A stretch of 64,000 bases of DNA from positions 57,612-121,611 of the forward strand of contig VXIS01000121.1 of assembly GCA_008704415.1 (NCBI GenBank). The letters run 5' to 3'. Origin of the DNA: Sphaerosporella brunnea (taxonomy: Eukaryota > Ascomycota > Pezizomycetes > Pezizales > Pyronemataceae). The notes beneath the pieces are model-generated. The model searched no databases. It was not told where the DNA came from and saw nothing but the letters and a program-made list of their open reading frames with translations. Both the position numbers and the translations under genes were made by a program. This document shows positions 26,734-64,000 of the stretch, in pieces; the first letter of the stretch is position 1, and every line of letters begins with the position of its first letter.

Positions 26734-26982
26734 TCATTCGAAGTGCTGCCTTACATCACCTCCAGCCTCAAAACACGGCGCGCATTCAAAGAGCCTGTTT
26801 TTTGTGGTGACCATCCACCAATATATAATATTGAGGCACATGTCGAGTGACATCATGTGTTTCAGCGATTCATCAGCCATCGCAGCGATGGTGTTGAGTT
26901 TTTCGATGAGATGTCCTTCTGTGACGAGTATGCTTCCGGCTTTGGCATCGTCACATCTCCCGATTACTTTTTCATGCTGCAT
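26734..26982 (-). other. Unrecognised short frame, possible gene remnant
   Basis: 82 codons from an ATG at 26982, with helix-like composition (EGHLIEKLNTIAAMADESLK). I recognise no domain and there is no supporting upstream exon. Only the part beyond 26811 can be seen mirrored, at 63830-64000. Confidence 0.25.
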
Positions 26983-27424
26983 CTACTGATGATATCGCCT
27001 CTGTTTTGGGGGTTGAGGGAGGCGAGGCAGCAAGTCAGGTGCACGTCTTAAAATAATTTTTTCCTCATTAACCATTACCCACCGTTATACATAAGAGAGG
27101 TTTTGGCTTAAAGCATTATCTTGAGCGTTTTAATATCATCGTCACAGAATTATTCAACCTGCCAAAGCTGTTACCATTTTTACCGGTGGTCAACTGGTTG
27201 AAATCGGTCTAAACTCGCCTCCCCCACACCTGCGAATACCACACATCTGCCCTACGGAAATTTGACCTGAAGATAGCCAGCCTAAAGCTCCTCATCGGTA
27301 TGAATTCATTGCCACCATCGCTGTCCTTGCTGTGTGTAAACTGTTTTAGATATCAGCCAAAAGTTCTGGTCCTTCTCATCCTGCTCCTGAGATGGTAGGC
27401 TATAAGGTTTGGATGATCATTTTC

Positions 27425-28514
27425 TTAAACGGCAAATTTCCAGGATACCAGGAGAAAATACCCGTATTTCCCCCCTTACCAGTGACATCGCGAGTTGTCC
27501 AGACTACCACAAACTCTTAAACTCGAGTGCCGCTCTGTGATTAGCCATCTCATACACCGTACACCGTGATCTACGCACTCGCCAACCACCTGTCTTTGCC
27601 TCGTCACCCTCGCAGCAACCCGTCGCGCCGGCCACCCACACCGTCACAACAACGCAACCGGCTTGTTGAATGCTTTACTGCCCTGATGTCAGAATCTGAG
27701 TTGCAGGACCCCATAAGGCGCCGGCATCAGCAGGAGGGAACCAGTCCAAGTCGCGCTCTGACCGTCGCCGTCGACTGCACAGCGCTACAGGCGAGTGAGC
27801 TCTTTGCAACTTTCCAAGACTTCAAGGCCAGAGGGCACAGTTAGGCTGCTACCGCTGGCTTCGCTGTCCGGTTTGAACGCTCCGACCGGAAGATGAGCTT
27901 TGTGGGTTGCCGGACATCAAAAATCCCGTGACTTCACGGCCCACGCCTACTGGAGACCGTCCAATATTGTGCAATCAGTCAATGTGGATCTGCTTGACAG
28001 TGTTTGGCCTAAAGTCATGGACTCTCACTTTACAAGACTGGAGAAAGCACGAAAAATGTCTCGCCAGTCTGCGAGTATGCAGGCAGAAACCAGGTACGGA
28101 TGAGCGATACTCAAGCACAGGTGCAGGCTATTATTGGCATCTACACGCCTGGTCTCCCGCCAATCAGCATGGAAGATGTGTAACTTCTCTCCCGGCAAGT
28201 TGGGTCACAGCCGGCTGTAGCAGAGGAACATTTTGATGATTTAGACAAGTAATCCTCCTTTGAGCCCTTGTGAGCCTCCCCTGACAAAGATCCCTCGCGG
28301 TTGGCCAAAGAAAAAGCGCATGCGACAGGGTGAAGCCGAACTTGAAGTGGCAATGTGTGTGGAAGCATGGAAGGTCACAATGCATAGATAGGGTCCGGCC
28401 AAGTAGTTTATGTCACAGGGCGGCACTCGAGTTTGTGGTAGTCTGGACAACTCGCGAAGTCACTGGTAGAAGGGGAAATACGAGTATTTTCTAGGCATTT
28501 GCCTTTTTTTTTAA
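27425..28514. mobile_element. 1.1 kb element with about 100-bp terminal inverted repeats, left-arm copy
   Basis: The two ends (27425-27545 and 28411-28514) are inverted copies sharing GGCAAAT, GAAAATAC, CGTATTTCCCC, CAGTGAC and GCGAGTTGTCCAGACTACC with several mismatches; one end has an 8-bp internal duplication (TTAAACTC). Both outer ends abut TTAA (27425-27428 and 28511-28514), which would be the target duplication of a piggyBac-like element, but AT-rich context makes this weak. The interior has no intact transposase; a plus-strand frame at 27566-27844 lacks an ATG and is not recognised. Probably non-autonomous. Confidence 0.6.
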
Positions 28515-28648
28515 AGGGCCGTCCCCTGCTAAGGTACATATATACATGTTTGATCAATCAAACCCTTTTCCGCCCAAACTCCACGACAGTGTAAAAACAT
28601 GGTATATATTCGTAACTCCATTCACCCCATCGCTAAACACCACTGCAA

Positions 28649-29239
28649 TCATAAGCCCTTTTTGTTCTCGACTATCTTCTCCAGTACCTCCTTTGCCCTC
28701 TGCTCAAACGCCTCGACCATGACGCCGGCCACCTTGGGGACAAAAGCGCCACTAACAGCCGAGTACAGCGGATTGGTAAACTTGAATTCGACGTGCAGCT
28801 TTACGTCGCTGCCGCCGGCGGCATTTGTATCCTCAGCGGGAGCGATTTCCCAGCGCGCGCACAGCTTCTGGAACAGCGGGTTCTGGCTCGCATCGGCTTC
28901 TACGCTCAGGTGCTCGGGCCTGCACGTCACGGTGCTGCGGAACGTCTCATCGAACTGGCCCCAGCCGACACGCAGGTCGGCTTCGGTGGGCGCGTTCGTG
29001 TGCGGACACCGCGCCGTCACTTGCGAGCCCAGGCAGTAGGGAAGGAAGTGCCGGTACGAGTCGATGTCGGAAACGATCTTGTACAGCGCTTTGGGTGCGT
29101 GCGGGAGACGCCGCGTCGCCGTGAATCGCTGCGGCACGCTCGCGTCCGGGAAGTCGAAGAATGTTCGCCGCTGTGGACGGAGAAGGAGCGGCTGTGCCCG
29201 CGCTGCTGCTGCTGGTGGGAAGGCTAATCGGAGTGACAT
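28649..29239 (-). CDS. COQ10: COQ10-like coenzyme Q-binding protein (START domain), mitochondrial; left-arm copy
   Basis: A single exon of 196 aa. The first 26 residues are basic and hydrophobic with no acid (RLAFPPAAAARAQPLLLRPQ), ending RRTFFDF, a typical matrix presequence. The polyketide-cyclase/START fold follows: ALYKIVSDIDSYRHFLPYC, then ADLRVGWGQFDETFRSTV, then FEFTNPLY-like FKFTNPLYSAVSGAF and a C-terminal helix AFEQRAKEVL. COQ10 binds ubiquinone in the inner membrane and is needed for its efficient use in respiration. Its length matches the family (about 170-240 aa). The gene is intact in both arms. Confidence 0.92.
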   Translation of the reverse strand: MSLRLAFPPAAAARAQPLLLRPQRRTFFDFPDASVPQRFTATRRLPHAPKALYKIVSDIDSYRHFLPYCLGSQVTARCPHTNAPTEADLRVGWGQFDETFRSTVTCRPEHLSVEADASQNPLFQKLCARWEIAPAEDTNAAGGSDVKLHVEFKFTNPLYSAVSGAFVPKVAGVMVEAFEQRAKEVLEKIVENKKGL

Positions 29240-30603
29240 CGTTTGGTGAGCATCAAAGCCGGTGCTTTAGCCCGTGGAGAGGATTGCAGTTGAGTGCACG
29301 TGACGTTCTGCTTTACGAACACAAACTTTCTGTTGATGAATACAGAACAAACCATCCTCTTTCAAGCGCCACCCTGAAACAAAGGATTTCAACATTAGAA
29401 TCACAAACAATTCAGAAAATTATAAACATGCAAAAAGAACTACCAGCTTTTCCTCAACTTGAAGCCCGCGCAAGCCATATGCGAAATCCTTCAGCACAGC
29501 ACCATACCGACTCTGCCTCCTCACAATACAATCAGCTGATTCTGTGTAAGAGCCCGCACGTCATCTTCTTCCACTCGGCCAGATGCTCCGCATAGCCATA
29601 AATCATTGGCCGTGACGGCCCTTGACCGGTGGTGAAGATTTTGCACACGAGGTGTAAAGTCGTTTTACTTTTGAAAATCAACCTGAAGGGGAAGGGGGGG
29701 ACCTTTTCAGACTCAAAATCCGGCTTTTAAACCCTTGTAAATTCCTGCGGGAAGTGTCGTGAAAGGGTGATAAACCACGCAATAATAACTTGGGAGGTAA
29801 AAACTTGAACTGTCCAATGTTGCAGAAATGGCGGGCATCTAGTTCTGGAAATATGGTCCGCATGTGCCATTTGCATAGACAGTTTCCGTTCTCATGTTGA
29901 AGTCAATTCCGGCATTCACGACTGTTGTGTCGAGGAATCTCTTCTAGACACAGGTGTACAAAAACAACACCGCTTCGTATTGCAGCTGCCTTCTGTACTG
30001 CATCCCGTTTTTGTAGGGTGCGGATCGGCGTTGCAGTTCCGGTAACGTACTTTCGTCCAGAAACACGATTCCGCAGTCACTTGCTGGAATTGCTGTAAGT
30101 GACGGTGCTGTCAGGGCGGCTGCAATAGTTGAAGAAGCTGGCGGTTTACGGCCGAATCCCATAGCAGTAGCAATTGCCTCAACAACGGATAGGGACCAGC
30201 TCAATGCTGAACTGGCTACGTTCATCACTGCTGTGGCATTCTGGGCCCATAGGGACGTCGGTTGGGCGGCCATCTGTGCCCATGCAGTCCTAACTGCTGG
30301 TCAGTGTGCCAGAATGGAATTCAGCCGCTGTATATAGGTTGTAGGTTGTGCTGGAGAGGGCGTCGTAAATTAACGAGTGATCGGTTCGACACCGTAACTG
30401 GATTGGGATTCAGAGAAAGTCCAGCATATGAGGTAGCCTGTGGATTTCAATTGAAACCTGGAGACTCATCCAGAGAACGCTCAAGCTTTGGCTTAGATTT
30501 GTCTAAGCTGAAGCTGATGTAATGACACCCTTCTTGAACGCGGCTGGAGTGATGCTAACCCTGGTACACCACACTCTCTCACTCGCTCGGCGCTCGGCGC
30601 TCG
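29240..30603. other. 1.4 kb without a supported gene, left arm (mirror 60209-61572)
   Basis: A minus-strand frame at 29944-30273 starts with ATG (MAAQPTSLWAQNATAVMNVA) and reads 109 codons with a moderately hydrophobic, Ala-rich N-terminal half; it is open in both arms but I recognise nothing in it. A C run (CCCCCC mirrored as GGGGGG at 29695-29700) separates it from COQ10. Confidence 0.35.
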
Positions 30604-30990
30604 GGGTCGATAAATACTATTTACACTCAAAATTAACATTAGAATACCATACGTTTCGATGCATTTCTGAAAAAAAATACATAGCTTGAGGGCAAAACTA
30701 CACTGAAAAAAAAAAAGTTGTGCTGAGACCGAATGACGGACCATGAATCGCGCTTCTTTTTGACTTTCTCAACGTCCGGCCTCCCACTGCAGCCACTCCC
30801 GCTGCCGCTCCCTCCCTAGATTGAATTCAATGACGTCTCCACAAACTCATATTCCGGTTCCTTCACTTCCTCTTCAATTTCGACCAATTGTTTTTTCTTC
30901 GACTTGGTCCCGGGTGGCGGAAGGAGCGTTCTAGAATGCGTAGGTTTTACATGATGTAGGATAGCTTGTCAGCTCGCTCTTCTGTAAGGC
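30604..30990 (+). repeat. Repeat A: diverged copy of the repeat B element, left arm
   Basis: Begins GGGTCGATAAATACTATTTACACTC and continues CATACGTTTC, TTTCTGAAAA, CTTGAGG/CCAAAACTACA and, near its end, GCG.TCTAGAATGCGTAGG..TACATGAT, each with a counterpart in the same order at 37364-38010. This copy lacks the MITE that interrupts repeat B, so it is an empty-site relative. On the minus strand its end can be read as a short basic/acidic C-terminus (TLLPPPGTKSKKKQLVEIEE) followed by a stop; its meaning is unclear. Confidence 0.6.
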
Positions 30991-31320
30991 TATTCCTCTT
31001 TTTATCATGCTAAGGTTTCTAGTGGAAAATGAACGCTCCGAAGGAACGGCGTTGGAAAGTATGTGAAGAAGCCTGACCGCTCAGAGCGTTGTCTGCAAGT
31101 TCCCGCACAGGAATTTGACAGCTGCGGTATTTGGCATACTGACTACGAGCTGCCTCCGGTTTGTGCGGTGGCACTTTCTCCTGGATGCCGAGCTTCTTGA
31201 TGTTGAGGCCATAATTTCTAATTCAAGCTAGGATCACTTGTACATATGGTTATTTCAAGGGTGAACAACCGCCATCCCACTCCCACAAATAACCTCATAG
31301 ACCTATTCAAATTCATAACA
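30991..31320. other. Intergenic, nothing recognised (mirror 59492-59821)
   Basis: 330 bp between repeat A and the stop codon of the four-TM protein gene. No frame or repeat of note. Confidence 0.5.
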
Positions 31321-32305
31321 TTACTGTTGCCTGGGCTCTTCCGGCAGACCACTTAGACCAGCAGCCCACCTGTAGTGTTGGGCCTGAGTGTGCGCTGCAT
31401 TGGAGGGTGGTGGCGAGGGCCGAGGAGTGGAGGAACTTCCAGAGTACTGGCTCGAAGCCTCCGCCTCCTGTGCCGGCTCCATCCGGAAAAACCCACTCTG
31501 CGACCTATCCGCCTGAGGAAGAGTACTGTTGCTATTACTCCTGCTGTTGTTGGTACGGACGTAGCTGCGGGCCTCGTGCTCGTTCCGGCTATGGACTCGC
31601 TCCGGAAGCTGGATGTTCTGCGTGTGCACGATGGTTGGCGCTGGGGTGTCTTCGGTGTCTGGAAGCTGGAGCTGGCGGAGCTTTCTGCGACGCTTGATGG
31701 ATCGGAGCATCCGCGCGGTTTCGGAGGTCGATTTAACCCGGTAGATGAAACTCTATGCGGAAGTCAGCATTAAGGATCTAATGAACCCCCCTTGAGGAGT
31801 GCTTACCGCGATGAAAGATGCCAACCCGGTAAAGCAAACACAAACCCCACTGGCTATCAGGAGGGCGTTGAAAGAGCTACCCATACTTGCTTTGGATGGA
31901 AAATCCTCGTTGAGATTTCCTAGCAAGGCAACACCCACGCCTACCTCGGCGACGCCTAACCAGGTGAGTGAGGCGTCGGCCGAAAATACCTGCCAGTTGT
32001 GATTGAAGTAGTCGCGGAGGAGACTGCATTCTGATAAGATCAAGAAGATGCAGATGCCGGTCAGGAAGATATGGCCTAGAGCGTCAAAGAAGAAAAACTA
32101 TGGCTTGTTAGTGATGGCGACGAGATGACCGTTGTTGAGTAGGGAGTGTTACTTTGGTTGCTACGAAACTTTTGATGAGTGTGGTCATGGCAGCAACGAT
32201 TGAGGATATGAGACTTATGATGCTCAACACTCGCAGTACGTTGAGGGCCCAGAAACCGCGATCGGTGGGGCGTTGTATGGGAGACATGCTGTGGAGTACC
32301 CGCAT
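31321..32305 (-). CDS. Four-TM fungal membrane protein of unknown function (DUF7598-like); left-arm copy
   Basis: Exons 32153-32305, 31807-32097 and 31321-31752, separated by introns of 55 and 54 bp with GTAACA and GTAAGC donors, all in phase 0, give 291 aa. Four hydrophobic segments are visible: VLRVLSIISLISSIVAAM (about 22-42), HIFLTGICIFLIL (about 58-75), TWLGVAEVGVGVALLGNL (about 98-116) and LLIASGVCVCFTGLASFI (about 130-148). After YRVKS comes a basic, then Ser/Pro-rich cytosolic tail of about 140 residues. The layout resembles a widespread ascomycete family that I recall as DUF7598; that name needs a profile search. The start (MRVLHSMSP) was chosen as the ATG closest to the conserved FWALNVLRVLS; the frame opens upstream to 32611. 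Nothing here indicates its function. Confidence 0.8.
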
Positions 32306-32821
32306 GTTGGGGGTTGCGGCCGCAAGGTGAGGTTTTAACAGGTCTTCAAGCTGTCGACTTTTTAAAGAGGGTTGAAGAGGAAATTGAATGGATGGTTGGA
32401 TGGTCAAATTGAATAGATGGAGGGATAGGTAAAAGAGGCACCTGGCCTCAGTTTGGGTATGGGCTCGGGTAAGCCTGAATGAGGGTTGAGATGGCCATTG
32501 AGATTGCTGTTGCGATTGAAGCTGGAGGTGGCCAGGTCGAGTGATATGTGGATCGAGACGACTTGGCAGGTCAACTCGATAGTACAACTCCATGTCGCCT
32601 GCTTTTGGCATCGAGTCGATCCTAAGTTGGACATGCTGATTCGTTGCTCATCTACCATCCAGGAGTTCAGCTTTGGGATTACACATGCAAGCTAAAATAC
32701 CATGAAAGCAATGGAATCAACTTTGTTACAAGTAGCGAAGTTTCTCATTGCAGAGGGGTAGCTAGAGCTCAACCCAGCGCAATGTGCCTAGAAAACAGAA
32801 TGTAGCTTTTGTCCCCGAGCA

Positions 32822-33310
32822 TTAACAGTCCAAGAAGTCGGCGATAAAAAGGAGCTCCAACGCAATCTCGGGGGTGATGAAGTCCGGCTCAGGCACTTCC
32901 TTCTGGCCTTTGTTCTTTTCGTAGTAGTAGAAATACTGGCAGACCTTCTCGAGTATGAGGCCGCTGTAGAGCTCGTTAGCAATGTCTCCTATATATGTCA
33001 TGGCCGCAAGCGGCCGAATACAATATGATTAAACAAACAACAAGCGATGTCCCATTGAACAGTTGTGGGAAGAAGTATTCCTTACCTCATGTTCTGAAAG
33101 ACGATTTTGTTTTCTCTCGCTTCGGTAAAGTTGCCTAATCATCGATCACATCGTCAATACAATGCAAGCTCTCAAGAACGGGCTTGACGGTCACTCACTG
33201 CGGGGATTCAGCATTCCCTTGATAGCAGGACTCTTCATCGCCGCCGATTTCCGAAGGATAAACTGGAAACCATCGTTGGAGACGAGGACGACGGATTCTT
33301 GCTCAGCCAT
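32822..33310 (-). CDS. ELC1: Elongin C (SKP1/BTB-fold adaptor); left-arm copy
   Basis: Exons 33199-33310, 33086-33134 and 32822-32963, with introns of 64 and 122 bp, give 100 aa, the length of yeast Elc1 (99). Diagnostic pieces are VLVSNDGFQFILRKSAA, SPAIKGMLNPR, NFTEARENKIVFQNM, VCQYFYYYEKN and the end LELLFIADFLDC, which is the elongin C signature that binds the BC-box of partner proteins. Elongin C pairs with Ela1-type F-box proteins and cullin 3/5-type ligases, for example in degradation of stalled RNA polymerase II. A GTT/AAC trinucleotide run of about 47 bp abuts the start codon, in the leader. Divergent from SERF, with 303 bp between the two starts. Confidence 0.95.
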
Positions 33311-33312
33311 CG

Positions 33313-33350
<38 letters not shown>

Positions 33351-33358
33351 GCTGTTGT
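33311..33358. repeat. GTT/AAC trinucleotide microsatellite, left arm
   Basis: About 13 GTT units plus imperfect ones, directly upstream of the elongin C start codon; the mirror copy is 57454-57501. Confidence 0.9.
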
Positions 33359-33613
33359 GTTGTTTTATCCGTGAGGGGTTTTTTCTCCAGGGATAAATGA
33401 GCTTGACGCGTGTCTGGAGTGCTGGGAATTCGCGTTCCCTCAACACACGTGGGTTAGGGGCGATCGAGGACGGCTTAAAACGGGTTAGCGGAAAGCGTCA
33501 GCCACACGGGCCAAAAATATCAATCCGAGTCCGTTCTGCACTTCAAACCTCTTCTTTATCCTCCACCGCTACGACCTACAACAAACACATCACCACTCCA
33601 TATACACCACGCA

Positions 33614-34135
33614 ATGACCCGCGGCAACCAGGTTCGGCTGTTTCCTCCTGCATTCCTCGAACTGTAGCTGACGTGCTCCAACAGCGAGAGCGCGATCGTG
33701 CGAAGGCCCAGAAGGCTGCGCAGAAGCAGAAGACTGCCACTAACGTAGTGCAGCCCCCGTTCTACTCGTTTATCAGCGTCGCTAACATGGCTCGCAGAAA
33801 TCTGGCTCCGAGATGTTGCGTGATAAGGATCGTGTGGCGCAGATAATGCGTGAGAAGCAGCAGAAAGGTACTACTGCCACCTCCAAGCCCCCCATTTCAC
33901 CCCTCCCCCGTCGTCGCTCGCCGTCAGTGTTATCACGGCGCTACCTCTCCGGCTGACCTCGCAAAGAACACGCACGGTCGCCGACTACACCTACATCCAC
34001 CACCTTCCCGCCTGCCTGCCCACTTTTGACACTGACATAACCATTACCATATTGGACGTGCTGATAACTAACCTTCTCACAGCCGAAGAGAAGAAAGCGG
34101 AAGCGTCCGGTGGCGGCGGAGCTAGCAAAAAATGA
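33614..34135 (+). CDS. SERF / 4F5 family small basic protein; left-arm copy
   Basis: Four small exons, 33614-33631, 33685-33744, 33798-33867 and 34083-34135, splice to a 66-aa protein starting MTRGNQ and RERDRAKAQKA, the 4F5/SERF signature. The rest is KSGSEMLRDKDRVAQIMREK and a Lys/Gly-rich end. SERF proteins are small, charged, disordered nuclear or cytosolic proteins that bind RNA and modify protein aggregation. The gene is too short and too split to appear as one frame; the first exon is only 18 bp. The last intron (33868-34082, 215 bp) is long for this window. Confidence 0.9.
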
Positions 34136-34574
34136 TACCCATCCATCTACGCATCCACGCACGTTGATTTCTACGGCATCATGACTTCTACGACACGATA
34201 AACGACGCTGCGATCCTCAACGACTTCTTCCTGTGCTTTTGTCTTTTTACCGGCGTAGATCGTGCTGCTGCTGCAAATTTAACGGGGCGTTCTCTTTTCC
34301 TGAGCATGGAAGAATGTTCCAGAACGTTTTGTGTTTTGTGGTTTCTTTGAGTGTGAACCTTTTGTTGCTTTGTTGGCCGGTAAGACGGTGAACAATCGAT
34401 TGATTTGTTTCAACATATATTGCTGTCCGCACATTGGCATACAGCTATCCTGAGAGGATCGAAACCTCTCATCGAAATCCGCCTGCACTTTGCTGGAAGT
34501 CCGAAGCCTATAAAACTGTTTCACTTGGTATCTTCCACAAGTCAACCGTGAGGCCTCCTAATCTTCAAGGCTCT
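34136..34574. other. Intergenic between convergent SERF and TRAPPC13 genes (mirror 56238-56676)
   Basis: 440 bp, AT-rich, no frame of note; presumably the two 3' untranslated regions. Confidence 0.5.
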
Positions 34575-35660
34575 CTAGACCGGCGGCAACATGAGTTTCC
34601 CCGTCCTCAAAAAGCCCTTGTCCCCACAACTCGTCCGCCACTCAATGTTCAACATCCCGAGTTCCTCCCCGGCGTCCCCTCCTCTGATCTCCGTCTCCCC
34701 GCCGATATCAGGCGGTTCAAGTAGAAACGCAACCTGCAAAATCTCCCTACTCCTCAGCAGCGGTGCCTCCGCTCCCTCTCCCTCGGTAACATCCCAATTG
34801 AGGCTTCTCCACCTCCACTTCGTTTTCATAGAAACCTTCTGCAGCGCTACCGACCCCTCCCCCAGGTTCTCCAGTTGTGCCTCCAATATCGCCTGTTTCC
34901 CGGGGGGTAGTCTCCCCGCTTTTGTGCGAACCATGATACACTGCTGGGCAATAAATTGGTAGAGCTTCTTGAATGTCCTCGTAGCGTCGCCGGGCGACGG
35001 CGTATAGCTCACCATCACAGCTAGCGTGTGCCCTCCCTCCTCTTTCAGCTCGTAAGACACAGTCCTCTGCGTCGACTGTCCCGCCTGCAATTCTACCCCC
35101 TCCCCTTCCTCATCTTCGTCCCCGGTAAGTTGAACAGTCTGTGACGGCGTCTGCATCTGCGCTTGTATTCGTACCCCGCTGCTGACACGCGTGGAAGACT
35201 CGTTGGATGCGGAGAGAATGCATGAGAAGGTTTCACCGATGTAGACGGAGCCGAAGGCCGGCGGGAGCGTTAGGAGCGGAGTGTAGATGAAGGACTCGCC
35301 GCTGGGGTGCGAAGGGTAGGCGTGGGCATGCTGCGCGGGGAGTTCGGAGATCGCGGTGGACGGTGGGAGGGTGAGCTGCTCGGAGAGGGAGGGCCGCGAT
35401 AACCTGCCTGCGCTGTCAGTATCAAGTGCTTGTACCCAACGGCATGCGCGCTCGTGCAACAGCCTTGTAAGTATGGAAGCTCGGATCAGAAAACTCTCGG
35501 CCATGTTCCTTTGCGAGCATTGATAGCCATTTCGATCTGAGCTTCCAACGGCGGGCTGGTTTGTGAGAGGAGCGCGAAGAAACAGACGGCATTACCGGAG
35601 GACTTTGAGGGATATAAAATGCGGTTCTTTGACCTCTGAGGCTGCACGTTCTCTCGGCAT
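34575..35660 (-). CDS. TRAPP complex subunit 13 (TRAPPC13, DUF974) homologue; left-arm copy
   Basis: Exon 1, 35596-35660 (MPRERAASEVKEPHFISLKV), joins exon 2, 34575-35403, across a 192-bp intron to give 297 aa. After splicing the N-terminus reads FISLKVLRLSRPSLSEQL, matching HSFALKVMRLTKP of animal TRAPPC13. Further matches are LTLPPAFGSVYIGETFSCILSA (family: LTLPxxFGxIxLGETF), VSYELKEEGGHTLAVMVSYT and FKKLYQFIAQ. The subunit belongs to the metazoan/filamentous-fungal TRAPPIII complex, a Rab1/Ypt1 exchange factor in ER-Golgi transport and autophagy. An acidic loop (GDEDEEGEGVE) lies near residue 115. Divergent from coatomer zeta with only 152 bp between the starts, so two secretory genes share a promoter. 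Confidence 0.9.
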
Positions 35661-35812
35661 TGTGTTCTGATGGTGTTGTGTGCGGATGTGGGGCGTGTAT
35701 GTATTGATGCTACATATGTGAATCACAGGAGCATTCAAAACAAACCCAAACCCTTCCGTGCAGCAAGCTGTCCACAGCTGTCCCTAGCAACCAGCAACAA
35801 GCAACAACCATC

Positions 35813-36517
35813 ATGTCGCCCAACTTCTCCCTCTTCTCTGTTTGTCCCGCCGACGCCCCGCCTGGCCGCCTCTGCTAATGCCATCTCCGTGCTAGGTAAA
35901 CGCGCTTCTGATCCTCGGTGCGGACGGCACCCGTATCTTAGCGAAATATTACACACCCCCGCATACCACCGGCACTTCGCAGAATCCGTACCCTACGCCC
36001 AAGGAGCAGAAAGCGTTCGAGAAGGGATTGCTGGAAAAGACAGTAAAGAGCACGGCGGATATCATTCTCTACGACAATCATGTGGTGGTCTTTAAAGCGG
36101 AGGGAGATGTGATGCTCTACATCGTCGGAGGATTGGACGAGAATGAGATGCTGTTGTGGCAGGTGGTTTTGGCTTTGAGGGATACGCTGCAGATTCTTTT
36201 GAAGTGGGTTTCTCCCTGGGCGGAATTGGAAGCGAGGAGGGAGATGGGGTGTGGCTGACGCCTGTTTCAGGAACTCGACGGATAAACGCACTATCATCGA
36301 GAACTATGATCTGGTGGCTTTGGCTATCGAGGAGATCATCGATGACGGAATCATCTTGGACACCGACCCTACCGCCATCGTCCAACGCGTTTCCCGCCCG
36401 CCGCAGCAGGACGTGCAGCTCAGCAACATTGATCTCAGCGAGAAGGGCTTGTTGAATGCGTGGGAGTTTGGAAAGAAGCAGCTTGCGGAGCGGTTGCGAC
36501 AGGGGCTGCAGACGTGA
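35813..36517 (+). CDS. RET3: Coatomer subunit zeta (COPI coat); left-arm copy
   Basis: Exons 35813-35839, 35896-36203 and 36271-36517 give 193 aa. The start MSPNFSLFSVNALLILGADG, made by joining exons 1 and 2, matches zeta-COP, followed by GTRILAKYY, QKAFEKGLLEKT, ADIILYDNHVVVFK, YIVGGLDENEMLL and, across intron 2, LLKNSTDKRTIIENYDLVAL, then DEIIDDGIILDTDP-like EEIIDDGIILDTDP. Zeta is a small, longin-fold subunit of the COPI coat for Golgi-to-ER transport. An intron run of C residues is one base shorter here than in the right arm, with no effect on coding. Confidence 0.94.
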
Positions 36518-36706
36518 TATGCAGGAGAGGGGAGGAGGAGGCGGCGGCGGAGGAGAAGGTTATTTTGACGTGGAATTGTGTATGATACACACTGAAAAGG
36601 GATGCATCTTCATCGAGTCTAACATTCGAATCTCGGCTTCACCCCTAACCCATACCCACACCATTCTTTCTTACCGCACCACCACCGCCGGCCCCGCGTC
36701 GCCGCA

Positions 36707-37304
36707 ATGTCACAGCCACTAACCCGCATCTCCACGCTCAATCTTGTCCTCGAGACCCCAAAGGCAAGGGGAGCCTCCTCTCCCGCCTCCCTCCCACAGC
36801 GCCGCACTAACTTCCGCCTACCCAGGCCGTGGTGTCTTCGCGACCGCGCTCATCCCGCCGGAACCGTAATTGACACGGCACCAGTGCTACTGCTGAGCGA
36901 ACGCGACTTCGACGAGCATGTAACGCACACATCGTTACTACACTACAGCTAGTACTCTCCCCTTCCCTTGCCCGCCCGCTCCACCATAAACCAAGCCGCT
37001 CACCACCCAGCAACTGGCCCACGCCCACCGACGATGGCAAGTCCAGCGTGCTGCGGCAGGCGATAGTGTTAGGCCTGGGCTCGATGTTCAACCACTCGGC
37101 GCGTAGGCAGAATGTAGGGTGGAAACGAAACCTGGAAAAAACAGGTAGTGGTTTACACTGCGCTTAGAGATATTGCCAAGGGAGAGGAGCTGCTCATCTC
37201 GTACGGCCCCGCATCTTACGTTTGTGGATGCGGAGGAGGCGATGTGGCAGCGGGGACGGGAGGCGGAGAGCGGGGAGGACTTCTTGGGGGGGATTGAGGT
37301 TTAG
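36707..37304 (+). pseudogene. SET-domain gene, left-arm copy with homopolymer frameshifts
   Basis: Same gene as 53507-54104, but with length changes confined to homopolymers: CCCC for CCCCC in exon 1, CCC for CCCC after GCTCAT in exon 2, A6 for A5 in the run before CAGGTAGTGG and CCCC for CCC in GTACGGCCC. These break the frame. Clean homopolymer errors with no other change are typical of unpolished long reads rather than natural decay. Confidence 0.8.
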
Positions 37305-37363
37305 AAATAGAGCGGGGTTGTATAATTCTTGTGCTTTGAACATTCAAAGCTACGGTACTACCT

Positions 37364-38354: not shown

Positions 38355-38509
38355 TATGGGGTACAGAAAATGACCCACCTCATTTTGCACAAGGCAGAAG
38401 GACTACTTGCAAAATTGATGGAAGGAATTCACGGGCACAATTCTACCAAACCTACATGCTGCATCCATTCCACAGCGGAAATTTAAAGGCGTACTGTGTA
38501 AAATATATG

Positions 38510-38529
38510 CCCTGAAGTTTACTTCAGGG
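38510..38529. other. 20-bp near-perfect palindrome
   Basis: CCCTGAAGT, a TT centre, then ACTTCAGGG. The mirror copy lies at about 52283-52302. It could be a protein-binding site or the remnant tip of a hairpin element. Confidence 0.4.
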
Positions 38530-43238: not shown

Positions 43239-43282
<44 letters not shown>

Positions 43283-45339: not shown

Positions 45340-45342
45340 AAT

Positions 45343-45518: not shown

Positions 45519-45519
45519 G

Positions 45520-53447: not shown

Positions 53448-53506
53448 AGGTAGTACCGTAGCTTTGAATGTTCAAAGCACAAGAATTATACAACCCCGCT
53501 CTATTT

Positions 53507-54104
53507 CTAAACCTCAATCCCCCCCAAGAAGTCCTCCCCGCTCTCCGCCTCCCGTCCCCGCTGCCACATCGCCTCCTCCGCATCCACAAACGTAAGATGC
53601 GGGCCGTACGAGATGAGCAGCTCCTCTCCCTTGGCAATATCTCTAAGCGCAGTGTAAACCACTACCTGTTTTTCCAGGTTTCGTTTCCACCCTACATTCT
53701 GCCTACGCGCCGAGTGGTTGAACATCGAGCCCAGGCCTAACACTATCGCCTGCCGCAGCACGCTGGACTTGCCATCGTCGGTGGGCGTGGGCCAGTTGCT
53801 GGGTGGTGAGCGGCTTGGTTTATGGTGGAGCGGGCGGGCAAGGGAAGGGGAGAGTACTAGCTGTAGTGTAGTAACGATGTGTGCGTTACATGCTCGTCGA
53901 AGTCGCGTTCGCTCAGCAGTAGCACTGGTGCCGTGTCAATTACGGTTCCGGCGGGGATGAGCGCGGTCGCGAAGACACCACGGCCTGGGTAGGCGGAAGT
54001 TAGTGCGGCGCTGTGGGAGGGAGGCGGGAGAGGAGGCTCCCCTTGCCTTTGGGGGTCTCGAGGACAAGATTGAGCGTGGAGATGCGGGTTAGTGGCTGTG
54101 ACAT
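53507..54104 (-). CDS. Small SET-domain protein (putative lysine methyltransferase); right-arm copy
   Basis: Exons 54047-54104, 53858-53984 and 53507-53798 give a 158-aa protein that is almost only a SET domain. PKGRGVFAT near residue 20 is the SAM-binding start, LGLGSMFNHSARRQNVGW (about 90-108) holds the NHS core, and GEELLISYG (about 126-134) carries the catalytic Tyr. The second junction restores HYSYNWP, a usual SET spacing. Intron 1 (53985-54046) uses a GC donor (GCAAGG) and a normal CAG acceptor; without it the KGRGVF motif is not formed. Substrate unknown. It lies downstream of coatomer zeta on the same strand with 190 bp between. Confidence 0.87.
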
Positions 54105-54293
54105 TGCGGCGACGCGGGGCCGGCGGTGGTGGTGCGGTAAGAAAGAATGGTGTGGGTATGGGTTAGGGGTGAAGCCGAGATTCGAATGTTAGACTCGATG
54201 AAGATGCATCCCTTTTCAGTGTGTATCATACACAATTCCACGTCAAAATAACCTTCTCCTCCGCCGCCGCCTCCTCCTCCCCTCTCCTGCATA

Positions 54294-54999
54294 TCACGTC
54301 TGCAGCCCCTGTCGCAACCGCTCCGCAAGCTGCTTCTTTCCAAACTCCCACGCATTCAACAAGCCCTTCTCGCTGAGATCAATGTTGCTGAGCTGCACGT
54401 CCTGCTGCGGCGGGCGGGAAACGCGTTGGACGATGGCGGTAGGGTCGGTGTCCAAGATGATTCCGTCATCGATGATCTCCTCGATAGCCAAAGCCACCAG
54501 ATCATAGTTCTCGATGATAGTGCGTTTATCCGTCGAGTTCCTGAAACAGGCGTCAGCCACACCCCATCTCCCTCCTCGCTTCCAATTCCGCCCAGGGAGA
54601 AACCCACTTCAAAAGAATCTGCAGCGTATCCCTCAAAGCCAAAACCACCTGCCACAACAGCATCTCATTCTCGTCCAATCCTCCGACGATGTAGAGCATC
54701 ACATCTCCCTCCGCTTTAAAGACCACCACATGATTGTCGTAGAGAATGATATCCGCCGTGCTCTTTACTGTCTTTTCCAGCAATCCCTTCTCGAACGCTT
54801 TCTGCTCCTTGGGCGTAGGGTACGGATTCTGCGAAGTGCCGGTGGTATGCGGGGGTGTGTAATATTTCGCTAAGATACGGGTGCCGTCCGCACCGAGGAT
54901 CAGAAGCGCGTTTACCTAGCACGGAGATGGCATTAGCAGAGGCGGCCAGGCGGGGCGTCGGCGGGGACAAACAGAGAAGAGGGAGAAGTTGGGCGACAT
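54294..54999 (-). CDS. RET3: Coatomer subunit zeta; right-arm copy
   Basis: Mirror of 35813-36517; start at ATG 54999, stop at 54294. It differs only by one extra C/G in the first intron. Confidence 0.94.
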
Positions 55000-55151
55000 G
55001 ATGGTTGTTGCTTGTTGCTGGTTGCTAGGGACAGCTGTGGACAGCTTGCTGCACGGAAGGGTTTGGGTTTGTTTTGAATGCTCCTGTGATTCACATATGT
55101 AGCATCAATACATACACGCCCCACATCCGCACACAACACCATCAGAACACA

Positions 55152-56237
55152 ATGCCGAGAGAACGTGCAGCCTCAGAGGTCAAAGAACCGCATTTTATAT
55201 CCCTCAAAGTCCTCCGGTAATGCCGTCTGTTTCTTCGCGCTCCTCTCACAAACCAGCCCGCCGTTGGAAGCTCAGATCGAAATGGCTATCAATGCTCGCA
55301 AAGGAACATGGCCGAGAGTTTTCTGATCCGAGCTTCCATACTTACAAGGCTGTTGCACGAGCGCGCATGCCGTTGGGTACAAGCACTTGATACTGACAGC
55401 GCAGGCAGGTTATCGCGGCCCTCCCTCTCCGAGCAGCTCACCCTCCCACCGTCCACCGCGATCTCCGAACTCCCCGCGCAGCATGCCCACGCCTACCCTT
55501 CGCACCCCAGCGGCGAGTCCTTCATCTACACTCCGCTCCTAACGCTCCCGCCGGCCTTCGGCTCCGTCTACATCGGTGAAACCTTCTCATGCATTCTCTC
55601 CGCATCCAACGAGTCTTCCACGCGTGTCAGCAGCGGGGTACGAATACAAGCGCAGATGCAGACGCCGTCACAGACTGTTCAACTTACCGGGGACGAAGAT
55701 GAGGAAGGGGAGGGGGTAGAATTGCAGGCGGGACAGTCGACGCAGAGGACTGTGTCTTACGAGCTGAAAGAGGAGGGAGGGCACACGCTAGCTGTGATGG
55801 TGAGCTATACGCCGTCGCCCGGCGACGCTACGAGGACATTCAAGAAGCTCTACCAATTTATTGCCCAGCAGTGTATCATGGTTCGCACAAAAGCGGGGAG
55901 ACTACCCCCCGGGAAACAGGCGATATTGGAGGCACAACTGGAGAACCTGGGGGAGGGGTCGGTAGCGCTGCAGAAGGTTTCTATGAAAACGAAGTGGAGG
56001 TGGAGAAGCCTCAATTGGGATGTTACCGAGGGAGAGGGAGCGGAGGCACCGCTGCTGAGGAGTAGGGAGATTTTGCAGGTTGCGTTTCTACTTGAACCGC
56101 CTGATATCGGCGGGGAGACGGAGATCAGAGGAGGGGACGCCGGGGAGGAACTCGGGATGTTGAACATTGAGTGGCGGACGAGTTGTGGGGACAAGGGCTT
56201 TTTGAGGACGGGGAAACTCATGTTGCCGCCGGTCTAG
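55152..56237 (+). CDS. TRAPPC13 homologue; right-arm copy
   Basis: Mirror of 34575-35660; exons 55152-55216 and 55409-56237. Confidence 0.9.
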
Positions 56238-56676
56238 AGAGCCTTGAAGATTAGGAGGCCTCACGGTTGACTTGTGGAAGATACCAAGTGAAACAGTTTT
56301 ATAGGCTTCGGACTTCCAGCAAAGTGCAGGCGGATTTCGATGAGAGGTTTCGATCCTCTCAGGATAGCTGTATGCCAATGTGCGGACAGCAATATATGTT
56401 GAAACAAATCAATCGATTGTTCACCGTCTTACCGGCCAACAAAGCAACAAAAGGTTCACACTCAAAGAAACCACAAAACACAAAACGTTCTGGAACATTC
56501 TTCCATGCTCAGGAAAAGAGAACGCCCCGTTAAATTTGCAGCAGCAGCACGATCTACGCCGGTAAAAAGACAAAAGCACAGGAAGAAGTCGTTGAGGATC
56601 GCAGCGTCGTTTATCGTGTCGTAGAAGTCATGATGCCGTAGAAATCAACGTGCGTGGATGCGTAGATGGATGGGTA

Positions 56677-57198
56677 TCATTTTTTGCTAGCTCCGCCGCC
56701 ACCGGACGCTTCCGCTTTCTTCTCTTCGGCTGTGAGAAGGTTAGTTATCAGCACGTCCAATATGGTAATGGTTATGTCAGTGTCAAAAGTGGGCAGGCAG
56801 GCGGGAAGGTGGTGGATGTAGGTGTAGTCGGCGACCGTGCGTGTTCTTTGCGAGGTCAGCCGGAGAGGTAGCGCCGTGATAACACTGACGGCGAGCGACG
56901 ACGGGGGAGGGGTGAAATGGGGGGCTTGGAGGTGGCAGTAGTACCTTTCTGCTGCTTCTCACGCATTATCTGCGCCACACGATCCTTATCACGCAACATC
57001 TCGGAGCCAGATTTCTGCGAGCCATGTTAGCGACGCTGATAAACGAGTAGAACGGGGGCTGCACTACGTTAGTGGCAGTCTTCTGCTTCTGCGCAGCCTT
57101 CTGGGCCTTCGCACGATCGCGCTCTCGCTGTTGGAGCACGTCAGCTACAGTTCGAGGAATGCAGGAGGAAACAGCCGAACCTGGTTGCCGCGGGTCAT
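56677..57198 (-). CDS. SERF / 4F5 family small basic protein; right-arm copy
   Basis: Mirror of 33614-34135 with the same exon structure, start at ATG 57198. Confidence 0.9.
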
Positions 57199-57453
57199 TG
57201 CGTGGTGTATATGGAGTGGTGATGTGTTTGTTGTAGGTCGTAGCGGTGGAGGATAAAGAAGAGGTTTGAAGTGCAGAACGGACTCGGATTGATATTTTTG
57301 GCCCGTGTGGCTGACGCTTTCCGCTAACCCGTTTTAAGCCGTCCTCGATCGCCCCTAACCCACGTGTGTTGAGGGAACGCGAATTCCCAGCACTCCAGAC
57401 ACGCGTCAAGCTCATTTATCCCTGGAGAAAAAACCCCTCACGGATAAAACAAC

Positions 57454-57461
57454 ACAACAGC

Positions 57462-57499
<38 letters not shown>

Positions 57500-57501
57500 C
57501 G
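57454..57501. repeat. AAC trinucleotide microsatellite, right arm
   Basis: Mirror of 33311-33358, with the same number of units. Equal length in both arms is itself notable because such tracts mutate fast. Confidence 0.9.
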
Positions 57502-57990
57502 ATGGCTGAGCAAGAATCCGTCGTCCTCGTCTCCAACGATGGTTTCCAGTTTATCCTTCGGAAATCGGCGGCGATGAAGAGTCCTGCTATCAAGGGAATG
57601 CTGAATCCCCGCAGTGAGTGACCGTCAAGCCCGTTCTTGAGAGCTTGCATTGTATTGACGATGTGATCGATGATTAGGCAACTTTACCGAAGCGAGAGAA
57701 AACAAAATCGTCTTTCAGAACATGAGGTAAGGAATACTTCTTCCCACAACTGTTCAATGGGACATCGCTTGTTGTTTGTTTAATCATATTGTATTCGGCC
57801 GCTTGCGGCCATGACATATATAGGAGACATTGCTAACGAGCTCTACAGCGGCCTCATACTCGAGAAGGTCTGCCAGTATTTCTACTACTACGAAAAGAAC
57901 AAAGGCCAGAAGGAAGTGCCTGAGCCGGACTTCATCACCCCCGAGATTGCGTTGGAGCTCCTTTTTATCGCCGACTTCTTGGACTGTTAA
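57502..57990 (+). CDS. ELC1: Elongin C; right-arm copy
   Basis: Mirror of 32822-33310 with the same three exons (57502-57613, 57678-57726, 57849-57990). Confidence 0.95.
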
Positions 57991-58506
57991 TGCTCGGGGA
58001 CAAAAGCTACATTCTGTTTTCTAGGCACATTGCGCTGGGTTGAGCTCTAGCTACCCCTCTGCAATGAGAAACTTCGCTACTTGTAACAAAGTTGATTCCA
58101 TTGCTTTCATGGTATTTTAGCTTGCATGTGTAATCCCAAAGCTGAACTCCTGGATGGTAGATGAGCAACGAATCAGCATGTCCAACTTAGGATCGACTCG
58201 ATGCCAAAAGCAGGCGACATGGAGTTGTACTATCGAGTTGACCTGCCAAGTCGTCTCGATCCACATATCACTCGACCTGGCCACCTCCAGCTTCAATCGC
58301 AACAGCAATCTCAATGGCCATCTCAACCCTCATTCAGGCTTACCCGAGCCCATACCCAAACTGAGGCCAGGTGCCTCTTTTACCTATCCCTCCATCTATT
58401 CAATTTGACCATCCAACCATCCATTCAATTTCCTCTTCAACCCTCTTTAAAAAGTCGACAGCTTGAAGACCTGTTAAAACCTCACCTTGCGGCCGCAACC
58501 CCCAAC

Positions 58507-59491
58507 ATGCGGGTACTCCACAGCATGTCTCCCATACAACGCCCCACCGATCGCGGTTTCTGGGCCCTCAACGTACTGCGAGTGTTGAGCATCATAAGTC
58601 TCATATCCTCAATCGTTGCTGCCATGACCACACTCATCAAAAGTTTCGTAGCAACCAAAGTAACACTCCCTACTCAACAACGGTCATCTCGTCGCCATCA
58701 CTAACAAGCCATAGTTTTTCTTCTTTGACGCTCTAGGCCATATCTTCCTGACCGGCATCTGCATCTTCTTGATCTTATCAGAATGCAGTCTCCTCCGCGA
58801 CTACTTCAATCACAACTGGCAGGTATTTTCGGCCGACGCCTCACTCACCTGGTTAGGCGTCGCCGAGGTAGGCGTGGGTGTTGCCTTGCTAGGAAATCTC
58901 AACGAGGATTTTCCATCCAAAGCAAGTATGGGTAGCTCTTTCAACGCCCTCCTGATAGCCAGTGGGGTTTGTGTTTGCTTTACCGGGTTGGCATCTTTCA
59001 TCGCGGTAAGCACTCCTCAAGGGGGGTTCATTAGATCCTTAATGCTGACTTCCGCATAGAGTTTCATCTACCGGGTTAAATCGACCTCCGAAACCGCGCG
59101 GATGCTCCGATCCATCAAGCGTCGCAGAAAGCTCCGCCAGCTCCAGCTTCCAGACACCGAAGACACCCCAGCGCCAACCATCGTGCACACGCAGAACATC
59201 CAGCTTCCGGAGCGAGTCCATAGCCGGAACGAGCACGAGGCCCGCAGCTACGTCCGTACCAACAACAGCAGGAGTAATAGCAACAGTACTCTTCCTCAGG
59301 CGGATAGGTCGCAGAGTGGGTTTTTCCGGATGGAGCCGGCACAGGAGGCGGAGGCTTCGAGCCAGTACTCTGGAAGTTCCTCCACTCCTCGGCCCTCGCC
59401 ACCACCCTCCAATGCAGCGCACACTCAGGCCCAACACTACAGGTGGGCTGCTGGTCTAAGTGGTCTGCCGGAAGAGCCCAGGCAACAGTAA
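58507..59491 (+). CDS. Four-TM fungal membrane protein (DUF7598-like); right-arm copy
   Basis: Mirror of 31321-32305. Exons 58507-58659, 58715-59005 and 59060-59491, all open and with the same splice sites. Confidence 0.8.
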
Positions 59492-59821
59492 TGTTATGAA
59501 TTTGAATAGGTCTATGAGGTTATTTGTGGGAGTGGGATGGCGGTTGTTCACCCTTGAAATAACCATATGTACAAGTGATCCTAGCTTGAATTAGAAATTA
59601 TGGCCTCAACATCAAGAAGCTCGGCATCCAGGAGAAAGTGCCACCGCACAAACCGGAGGCAGCTCGTAGTCAGTATGCCAAATACCGCAGCTGTCAAATT
59701 CCTGTGCGGGAACTTGCAGACAACGCTCTGAGCGGTCAGGCTTCTTCACATACTTTCCAACGCCGTTCCTTCGGAGCGTTCATTTTCCACTAGAAACCTT
59801 AGCATGATAAAAAGAGGAATA

Positions 59822-60208
59822 GCCTTACAGAAGAGCGAGCTGACAAGCTATCCTACATCATGTAAAACCTACGCATTCTAGAACGCTCCTTCCGCCACCC
59901 GGGACCAAGTCGAAGAAAAAACAATTGGTCGAAATTGAAGAGGAAGTGAAGGAACCGGAATATGAGTTTGTGGAGACGTCATTGAATTCAATCTAGGGAG
60001 GGAGCGGCAGCGGGAGTGGCTGCAGTGGGAGGCCGGACGTTGAGAAAGTCAAAAAGAAGCGCGATTCATGGTCCGTCATTCGGTCTCAGCACAACTTTTT
60101 TTTTTTCAGTGTAGTTTTGCCCTCAAGCTATGTATTTTTTTTCAGAAATGCATCGAAACGTATGGTATTCTAATGTTAATTTTGAGTGTAAATAGTATTT
60201 ATCGACCC
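59822..60208 (-). repeat. Repeat A, right arm
   Basis: Mirror image of 30604-30990. Confidence 0.6.
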
Positions 60209-61572
60209 CGAGCGCCGAGCGCCGAGCGAGTGAGAGAGTGTGGTGTACCAGGGTTAGCATCACTCCAGCCGCGTTCAAGAAGGGTGTCATTACATCAGCT
60301 TCAGCTTAGACAAATCTAAGCCAAAGCTTGAGCGTTCTCTGGATGAGTCTCCAGGTTTCAATTGAAATCCACAGGCTACCTCATATGCTGGACTTTCTCT
60401 GAATCCCAATCCAGTTACGGTGTCGAACCGATCACTCGTTAATTTACGACGCCCTCTCCAGCACAACCTACAACCTATATACAGCGGCTGAATTCCATTC
60501 TGGCACACTGACCAGCAGTTAGGACTGCATGGGCACAGATGGCCGCCCAACCGACGTCCCTATGGGCCCAGAATGCCACAGCAGTGATGAACGTAGCCAG
60601 TTCAGCATTGAGCTGGTCCCTATCCGTTGTTGAGGCAATTGCTACTGCTATGGGATTCGGCCGTAAACCGCCAGCTTCTTCAACTATTGCAGCCGCCCTG
60701 ACAGCACCGTCACTTACAGCAATTCCAGCAAGTGACTGCGGAATCGTGTTTCTGGACGAAAGTACGTTACCGGAACTGCAACGCCGATCCGCACCCTACA
60801 AAAACGGGATGCAGTACAGAAGGCAGCTGCAATACGAAGCGGTGTTGTTTTTGTACACCTGTGTCTAGAAGAGATTCCTCGACACAACAGTCGTGAATGC
60901 CGGAATTGACTTCAACATGAGAACGGAAACTGTCTATGCAAATGGCACATGCGGACCATATTTCCAGAACTAGATGCCCGCCATTTCTGCAACATTGGAC
61001 AGTTCAAGTTTTTACCTCCCAAGTTATTATTGCGTGGTTTATCACCCTTTCACGACACTTCCCGCAGGAATTTACAAGGGTTTAAAAGCCGGATTTTGAG
61101 TCTGAAAAGGTCCCCCCCTTCCCCTTCAGGTTGATTTTCAAAAGTAAAACGACTTTACACCTCGTGTGCAAAATCTTCACCACCGGTCAAGGGCCGTCAC
61201 GGCCAATGATTTATGGCTATGCGGAGCATCTGGCCGAGTGGAAGAAGATGACGTGCGGGCTCTTACACAGAATCAGCTGATTGTATTGTGAGGAGGCAGA
61301 GTCGGTATGGTGCTGTGCTGAAGGATTTCGCATATGGCTTGCGCGGGCTTCAAGTTGAGGAAAAGCTGGTAGTTCTTTTTGCATGTTTATAATTTTCTGA
61401 ATTGTTTGTGATTCTAATGTTGAAATCCTTTGTTTCAGGGTGGCGCTTGAAAGAGGATGGTTTGTTCTGTATTCATCAACAGAAAGTTTGTGTTCGTAAA
61501 GCAGAACGTCACGTGCACTCAACTGCAATCCTCTCCACGGGCTAAAGCACCGGCTTTGATGCTCACCAAACG
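60209..61572. other. 1.4 kb without a supported gene, right arm
   Basis: Mirror of 29240-30603; the plus-strand ATG frame at 60539-60868 is open (109 codons) but unrecognised. Confidence 0.35.
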
Positions 61573-62163
61573 ATGTCACTCCGATTAGCCTTCCCACCAG
61601 CAGCAGCAGCGCGGGCACAGCCGCTCCTTCTCCGTCCACAGCGGCGAACATTCTTCGACTTCCCGGACGCGAGCGTGCCGCAGCGATTCACGGCGACGCG
61701 GCGTCTCCCGCACGCACCCAAAGCGCTGTACAAGATCGTTTCCGACATCGACTCGTACCGGCACTTCCTTCCCTACTGCCTGGGCTCGCAAGTGACGGCG
61801 CGGTGTCCGCACACGAACGCGCCCACCGAAGCCGACCTGCGTGTCGGCTGGGGCCAGTTCGATGAGACGTTCCGCAGCACCGTGACGTGCAGGCCCGAGC
61901 ACCTGAGCGTAGAAGCCGATGCGAGCCAGAACCCGCTGTTCCAGAAGCTGTGCGCGCGCTGGGAAATCGCTCCCGCTGAGGATACAAATGCCGCCGGCGG
62001 CAGCGACGTAAAGCTGCACGTCGAATTCAAGTTTACCAATCCGCTGTACTCGGCTGTTAGTGGCGCTTTTGTCCCCAAGGTGGCCGGCGTCATGGTCGAG
62101 GCGTTTGAGCAGAGGGCAAAGGAGGTACTGGAGAAGATAGTCGAGAACAAAAAGGGCTTATGA
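61573..62163 (+). CDS. COQ10: COQ10-like coenzyme Q-binding protein; right-arm copy
   Basis: Identical in translation to the copy at 28649-29239, in opposite orientation. The extent of the flanking sequence is also identical, so no separate regulation can be argued. Confidence 0.92.
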   Translation: MSLRLAFPPAAAARAQPLLLRPQRRTFFDFPDASVPQRFTATRRLPHAPKALYKIVSDIDSYRHFLPYCLGSQVTARCPHTNAPTEADLRVGWGQFDETFRSTVTCRPEHLSVEADASQNPLFQKLCARWEIAPAEDTNAAGGSDVKLHVEFKFTNPLYSAVSGAFVPKVAGVMVEAFEQRAKEVLEKIVENKKGL

Positions 62164-62297
62164 TTGCAGTGGTGTTTAGCGATGGGGTGAATGGAGTTAC
62201 GAATATATACCATGTTTTTACACTGTCGTGGAGTTTGGGCGGAAAAGGGTTTGATTGATCAAACATGTATATATGTACCTTAGCAGGGGACGGCCCT

Positions 62298-63387
62298 TTA
62301 AAAAAAAAGGCAAATGCCTAGAAAATACTCGTATTTCCCCTTCTACCAGTGACTTCGCGAGTTGTCCAGACTACCACAAACTCGAGTGCCGCCCTGTGAC
62401 ATAAACTACTTGGCCGGACCCTATCTATGCATTGTGACCTTCCATGCTTCCACACACATTGCCACTTCAAGTTCGGCTTCACCCTGTCGCATGCGCTTTT
62501 TCTTTGGCCAACCGCGAGGGATCTTTGTCAGGGGAGGCTCACAAGGGCTCAAAGGAGGATTACTTGTCTAAATCATCAAAATGTTCCTCTGCTACAGCCG
62601 GCTGTGACCCAACTTGCCGGGAGAGAAGTTACACATCTTCCATGCTGATTGGCGGGAGACCAGGCGTGTAGATGCCAATAATAGCCTGCACCTGTGCTTG
62701 AGTATCGCTCATCCGTACCTGGTTTCTGCCTGCATACTCGCAGACTGGCGAGACATTTTTCGTGCTTTCTCCAGTCTTGTAAAGTGAGAGTCCATGACTT
62801 TAGGCCAAACACTGTCAAGCAGATCCACATTGACTGATTGCACAATATTGGACGGTCTCCAGTAGGCGTGGGCCGTGAAGTCACGGGATTTTTGATGTCC
62901 GGCAACCCACAAAGCTCATCTTCCGGTCGGAGCGTTCAAACCGGACAGCGAAGCCAGCGGTAGCAGCCTAACTGTGCCCTCTGGCCTTGAAGTCTTGGAA
63001 AGTTGCAAAGAGCTCACTCGCCTGTAGCGCTGTGCAGTCGACGGCGACGGTCAGAGCGCGACTTGGACTGGTTCCCTCCTGCTGATGCCGGCGCCTTATG
63101 GGGTCCTGCAACTCAGATTCTGACATCAGGGCAGTAAAGCATTCAACAAGCCGGTTGCGTTGTTGTGACGGTGTGGGTGGCCGGCGCGACGGGTTGCTGC
63201 GAGGGTGACGAGGCAAAGACAGGTGGTTGGCGAGTGCGTAGATCACGGTGTACGGTGTATGAGATGGCTAATCACAGAGCGGCACTCGAGTTTAAGAGTT
63301 TGTGGTAGTCTGGACAACTCGCGATGTCACTGGTAAGGGGGGAAATACGGGTATTTTCTCCTGGTATCCTGGAAATTTGCCGTTTAA
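62298..63387. mobile_element. 1.1 kb TIR element, right-arm copy
   Basis: Mirror image of 27425-28514 with at most one base of length difference. Confidence 0.6.
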
Positions 63388-64000
63388 GAAAATGATCATC
63401 CAAACCTTATAGCCTACCATCTCAGGAGCAGGATGAGAAGGACCAGAACTTTTGGCTGATATCTAAAACAGTTACACACAGCAAGGACAGCGATGGTGGC
63501 AATGAATTCATACCGATGAGGAGCTTTAGGCTGGCTATCTTCAGGTCAAATTTCCGTAGGGCAGATGTGTGGTATTCGCAGGTGTGGGGGAGGCGAGTTT
63601 AGACCGATTTCAACCAGTTGACCACCGGTAAAAATGGTAACAGCTTTGGCAGGTTGAATAATTCTGTGACGATGATATTAAAACGCTCAAGATAATGCTT
63701 TAAGCCAAAACCTCTCTTATGTATAACGGTGGGTAATGGTTAATGAGGAAAAAATTATTTTAAGACGTGCACCTGACTTGCTGCCTCGCCTCCCTCAACC
63801 CCCAAAACAGAGGCGATATCATCAGTAGATGCAGCATGAAAAAGTAATCGGGAGATGTGACGATGCCAAAGCCGGAAGCATACTCGTCACAGAAGGACAT
63901 CTCATCGAAAAACTCAACACCATCGCTGCGATGGCTGATGAATCGCTGAAACACATGATGTCACTCGACATGTGCCTCAATATTATATATTGGTGGATGG
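63388..64000. other. Outer part of right arm, no gene supported
   Basis: Mirror of 26811-27424. Ends at the window edge while still complementary to the left arm. Confidence 0.5.

Follow-up and report, generated by a model that had tools for sequence, protein, structure and literature searches.

The locus studied here, on a contig of the Sphaerosporella brunnea assembly, raises the question of whether a giant palindrome with genes in both arms belongs to the genome of this fungus or was produced on the way from DNA molecule to assembly. The window, that is the whole stretch of DNA analysed (64,000 nucleotides), covers positions 57,612-121,611 of contig C26, which has a total of 121,611 bases. 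The assembly analysed comprises 640 contigs and 50.57 Mb and is not identical to the description in the genome paper (PMC6908789), which gives PacBio low-input sequencing, Falcon, finisherSC and Arrow as the method and a depth of 907.91x. An earlier sequence-only reading of the window had put forward both a natural inverted duplication and a fold-back chimeric read at a contig end. The palindrome is almost certainly an assembly artefact arising from a fold-back (self-complementary) long read, and not a feature of the genome.

Geometry and identity of the arms

The inverted repeat itself was confirmed by self-BLAST, in which 26,811-45,343 pairs with 64,000-45,708 in two collinear inverted matches, the first (26,811-43,224 versus 64,000-47,676) of 16,578 columns and the second (43,402-45,343 versus 47,674-45,708) of 2,007 columns, a length of inverted match which is far beyond chance. 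The structure is composed of the following parts.

26811..45343, forward strand: arm A, clean to about 37 kb and indel-rich from about 39 to 45.3 kb, with broken frames that arm B keeps open
43226..43402, forward strand: poly-G noise of 177 nt in arm A (158 G, 13 A, 5 T, 1 C), with none in arm B
45344..45515, no strand: tract of A and C only, 172 nt (91 A, 81 C), low-complexity noise that starts the turn and has no arm B counterpart
45516..45707, no strand: ordinary sequence of 192 nt on the arm B side only, with a single occurrence in the assembly
45708..64000, reverse strand: arm B, the inverted copy of arm A, whose outer end is the final base of C26 (121,611)

The centre without match is thus 45,344-45,707, or 364 nt, made of the 172 nt of A/C noise and the 192 nt of ordinary arm-B sequence, and the reverse complement follows after this small spacer. 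The sums of paired positions, which had been put at about 90,812, begin at 90,811 as claimed but do not stay there and move inward to 91,051 because of the indels and the poly-G insert. Two features go beyond the earlier reading, namely that the arms are unequal inside and that the last base of the window is also the last base of the contig.

The inequality follows a gradient. Identity between the arms is 99.96% over the outer 10.2 kb (26,811-37,000; no mismatches and 4 gap bases), 98.61% over 37,001-39,000, 88.96% over 39,001-43,225 and 93.37% over 43,403-45,343. Such a gradient would be expected where correction fails near a turn, while natural decay has no known pattern of this kind. Summed over both BLAST matches there are 522 gap bases versus 126 mismatches, counts that depend on the aligner, since global MAFFT, which had to align the noise and the centre as well, counted 522 mismatches together with 249 gap events, of which 158 were one base long. 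Only 26 of the 126 BLAST mismatches are transitions. RIP or ordinary decay was rejected as an explanation of why the arms diverge inside, because C>T and G>A together make up only 11 of the 126 mismatches and indels dominate. The assumption of active RIP found no support either, given that none of 32 two-kb windows passed the RIP thresholds set in this analysis; that the arms lack RIP marks therefore says little either way.

Errors in arm A and noise at the turn

The genes that occur in both arms make it possible to ask which arm carries the differences, and at every place where judgement was possible the errors were assigned to arm A. The features compared are listed below.

34575..35504, reverse strand: TRAPPC13-like gene, arm A, in its clean outer part
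38786..38904, reverse strand: 5S rRNA, arm A, 86.6 bits, with one substitution and one missing base
47223..48908, forward strand: intact 561-aa frame with dDENN and C1 domains, arm B
49886..51199, reverse strand: intact 437-aa frame without Pfam match, arm B
51908..52027, forward strand: 5S rRNA, arm B, 100.2 bits
55308..56237, forward strand: TRAPPC13-like gene, arm B, with 0 differences from the arm A copy over 930 bases

In arm A, the longest open frame on the coding strand of the counterpart of the 561-aa frame is at most 194 aa, and that of the 437-aa frame is 148 aa. In MAFFT alignments, indels in multiples of three were only 3 of 57 for the 561-aa frame and 3 of 48 for the 437-aa frame, and mismatches by codon position were 42/42/30 and 37/35/33 respectively. 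The indels thus break the frames and the mismatches are spread over the codon positions, and therefore no mark of selection is seen; the arm differences are of error type rather than evolutionary, and the arms are neither both intact nor naturally diverged. At the other extreme, the TRAPPC13-like copies of the clean outer part have identical scores, and the frame is 100% identical to Sphaerosporella brunnea FN846DRAFT_780196 across 89% of the query.

The presence of a 5S gene in both arms, claimed earlier, holds at 38,786-38,904 (reverse strand) and 51,908-52,027 (forward strand). The two copies differ at two sites, and at both sites the 27 other full-length copies, taken from loci fetched from the same genome, agree with arm B in 27 of 27 cases and with arm A in 0 of 27. 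Both differences are consequently errors in arm A, a result independent of the frame evidence. The 5S gene (window 38500-39100 and its copies) is also embedded in a longer dispersed repeat, whose matches continue past the gene as far as query positions 2,769-3,101, beginning at 2,509 in some contigs; this repeat may be a 5S-derived mobile element.

At the turn, the 192-nt stretch of ordinary sequence has about the same length as the A/C noise opposite (172 nt), which suggests that the noise could be the same terminal stretch misread, and noise at this place points to very few reads there. No SMRTbell adapter was found at the window turn, where the spacer scored below its own shuffles (single-base-shuffle control). 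Against the same adapter sequence, the spacer of a palindrome on another contig (C627) gave a weak score of 35 out of 90, a level also attained by 2 of 200 shuffles. A telomere at the turn was rejected, neither TTAGGGTTAGGG nor its complement being present anywhere in the window.

Flanks and terminal palindromes elsewhere in the assembly

A natural palindrome would have a unique flank beyond each arm, and here arm A has one while arm B stops with the contig. Searches of the assembly placed the inner stretch 45,516-47,200 on C26 only, at 100% in arm B and 92% in arm A, and the outer stretch 34,400-36,400 in arms A and B only, besides a 75% partial match on C604. For the outer edge, the 100% match was C26 itself alone and the others were dispersed repeats at 71-88%; no contig therefore provides the further flank required by a real palindrome, a lack that falls short of proof given that sequence goes missing from draft assemblies. 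The turns of the window, of the left end of C26 and of C627 lie in sequence that no second contig of the assembly spans.

The structure is not the only one of its kind, since at least seven further palindromes were found, at the left end of C26 and on C30, C64, C96, C125, C600 and C627. With the right end of C26 (the palindrome of the window) included, an arm reaches the contig terminus in 8 of 8 palindromes, and in all seven of the others tested the second half lies, as in the window, at the contig end with no onward flank. For the other palindromes the arm comparison covered sampled places, except at the left end of C26, where it ran along 363-10,000 and gave 99.67% identity, base 1 pairing with 10,362 around a loop of 10 nt. 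Where the loops are clear, those of C30, C125 and C600 are 0, 3 and 16 nt respectively; C64 has a loop of 34 nt with a shorter pairing visible inside. C96 shows an inward loss like that of the window, with 100% identity at 70.0 and 74.0 kb, 96% at 76.0-76.7 kb and a centre without match.

These palindromes were reached by several routes. A search with inner-arm sequence listed 30 contigs, with the same element present twice in opposite orientation on C96, C627 and C125, all of which proved palindromic. In an even sample of 20 contigs, fold-backs were present at at least 2 of 20 starts (C30 and C600) and at 0 of 20 ends among the candidates scored. These searches scored the best 39-40 of 392, 1,685 and 231 first-look candidates, so that a missed partner is possible; every start and end found itself.

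C64 came up through a probe from the end of C360, a contig whose final 249 bases match the two C64 arms beside the C64 turn, at 99.2 and 98.0%. Upstream of 34,231, C360 is neither the other C64 arm nor palindromic, as compared with C64 98,500-99,500 only. C360 thus passes across the C64 turn in sequence that is not palindromic and, as judged from this comparison, is a direct contradiction of the palindrome on C64.

C180 was rejected as a fold-back. Its positions 1-5283 are an inverted copy of 43743-49041, about 38 kb further in and without a palindromic centre, with identities of 100% at 2,001-2,300 and 90% at 5,001-5,283. Probes from 6,001-7,000, 8,001-9,000 and 10,001-10,400 and from the centre gave nothing, and C180 was for this reason left out of the palindrome count; its start is either a genuine inverted repeat or a join of a different kind. 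Separately, a probe from the end of C390 matched C506 in opposite orientations (451-541 on the reverse strand, 17534-17623 on the forward strand), and since the probe is multi-copy the pair may reflect either a repeat or an additional palindrome. At the start of C30, positions 151-241 belong to a repeat found on many contigs, near many contig starts and with copies about 7.3 kb apart on several of them. Ribosomal DNA was rejected for it, as Rfam had no match in 1.8 kb of the 7.3-kb repeat.

Origin of the palindrome and its consequences

In the proposed course of events, a read would have followed one strand of a DNA molecule as far as about 45,515 and returned on the complementary strand, and the assembler would have taken the turn-back for onward sequence, adding a reverse copy of the locus until the contig end at 64,000. 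The inner part of arm A (about 37-45.5 kb) would be the noisy first pass, left nearly raw, and arm B the near-correct version. Probably a single chimeric read bridged the turn, and ordinary reads would have polished arm B and not arm A; from the way such tools work, finisherSC could have inserted sequence from raw reads, after which Arrow could have assigned every read to arm B. The fold-back molecule may have come from a missed hairpin adapter, from snap-back end repair or from amplification. The fold-back read proposed at the outset is supported by the error distribution, the broken frames of arm A, the noise tracts in arm A and at the turn, the position at a contig end and the recurrence in seven other terminal palindromes. 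On the other side, fold-backs are absent from most contig ends of the even sample, the 18.5-kb arms exceed the stated 10-kb library so that one insert could hold just the noisy inner 8-9 kb, no SMRTbell adapter was found at the turn, and the turns of C26 left, C125 and C600 are clean with loops of 3-16 nt, unlike that of the window.

A real chromosomal inverted duplication, its arms 18.5 kb or longer and its inner part merely badly covered by the assembly, is very improbable. It would account for the outer 10.2 kb, which are near-identical and free of RIP-like change as in a very young duplication, and the contig-end position alone does not speak against it, because a string-graph assembler would also halt at the outer edge of a real palindrome. 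However, the frame-breaking indels of sequencing-error type and the noise in inner arm A should not persist at 908x, a depth at which a real locus or junction would be expected to have been corrected rather than left unpolished. Moreover, the flank expected after arm B is on no other contig, all 8 contig-end palindromes tested, both ends of C26 included, would need to be real, and C360 contradicts the one on C64. The giant natural palindrome suggested by the sequence-only reading is accordingly not upheld, given the error-type differences in arm A, the noise, the recurrence at contig ends and the crossing of C64 by C360. Less probable still are hairpin-closed DNA ends in the fungus, with reads passing from one strand into the other, even though C26 turns back at each of its ends and has a left loop of only 10 nt: 38 of 40 sampled ends have no turn-back among the candidates scored, the sequences at the turns are unrelated and surrounded by ordinary genes, C360 runs across the turn of C64 and no telomere repeat was found in the window. 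By the same token it is extremely unlikely that the terminal palindromes, those at both ends of C26 included, record some hairpin-closed ends or inverted-dimer molecules in vivo.

A stronger contender, though with somewhat less than an even chance, is that the fold-back molecules already existed when sequencing began, a low-input or amplified library having produced them through strand switching or snap-back copying, as happens in whole-genome amplification; it is an account that differs from the preferred one solely in the step making the molecule. The library was indeed low-input (PMC6908789), the clean turns without adapter of C30, C125, C26 left and C600 (loops of 0, 3, 10 and 16 nt) resemble direct strand switches, and amplification is known to yield palindromic long reads, as described in the Pacasus paper (PMC6218980). 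Against it, amplification is not mentioned in the genome paper (PMC6908789), and the noisy turn of the window cannot show whether its loop was clean.

In a missed-adapter PacBio subread, both passes of one insert are joined in one read with an error-rich turn. The window is like such a subread in its joined forward and reverse pass and its error-rich turn, and differs in that no adapter remnant was recognised in the spacer. The giant palindromes of primate Y chromosomes have unique flanks on both sides and arms intact up to the spacer; the window shares with them long inverted arms with genes, but one of its arms breaks off at the contig end, and indels have corrupted the inner arm. In the Breakinator survey (PMC12870357), a foldback is a read that continues, much as the sequence of the window does, into its own reverse complement after a minimal spacer or none, and the stretch joining the halves shows an enrichment of homopolymer A and AC repeats, which the A/C-only tract of the window much resembles. 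The foldbacks reported there were seen in reads, unlike the structure of the window, which is known from the assembly, and were mainly from nanopore, with almost none in three PacBio samples of newer chemistries, a near-absence which speaks against a routine PacBio origin, although the samples described include no older low-input library. In the Pacasus paper (PMC6218980), the palindromic reads after whole-genome amplification are likewise PacBio sequence of inverted copies that spoil assembly; unlike that case, no amplification is reported for the S. brunnea library.

As an artefact of a fold-back read, the palindrome would have no biological import, and its value is that of a warning on the assembly. 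About 24 kb of the 121.6 kb of C26 would be redundant (97,945 bases when the duplication is left out), genes in the arms occur twice in the assembly, and similar contig ends occur elsewhere. Terminal palindromes should therefore be excluded before gene counts, copy-number comparisons or claims on inverted repeats or RIP are made for this genome. Apart from the giant structure, self-BLAST of the window also revealed small imperfect palindromes at 23944-24403 and 2760-2966, of 119-230 bp and 78-84% identity, which resemble small inverted-repeat elements.
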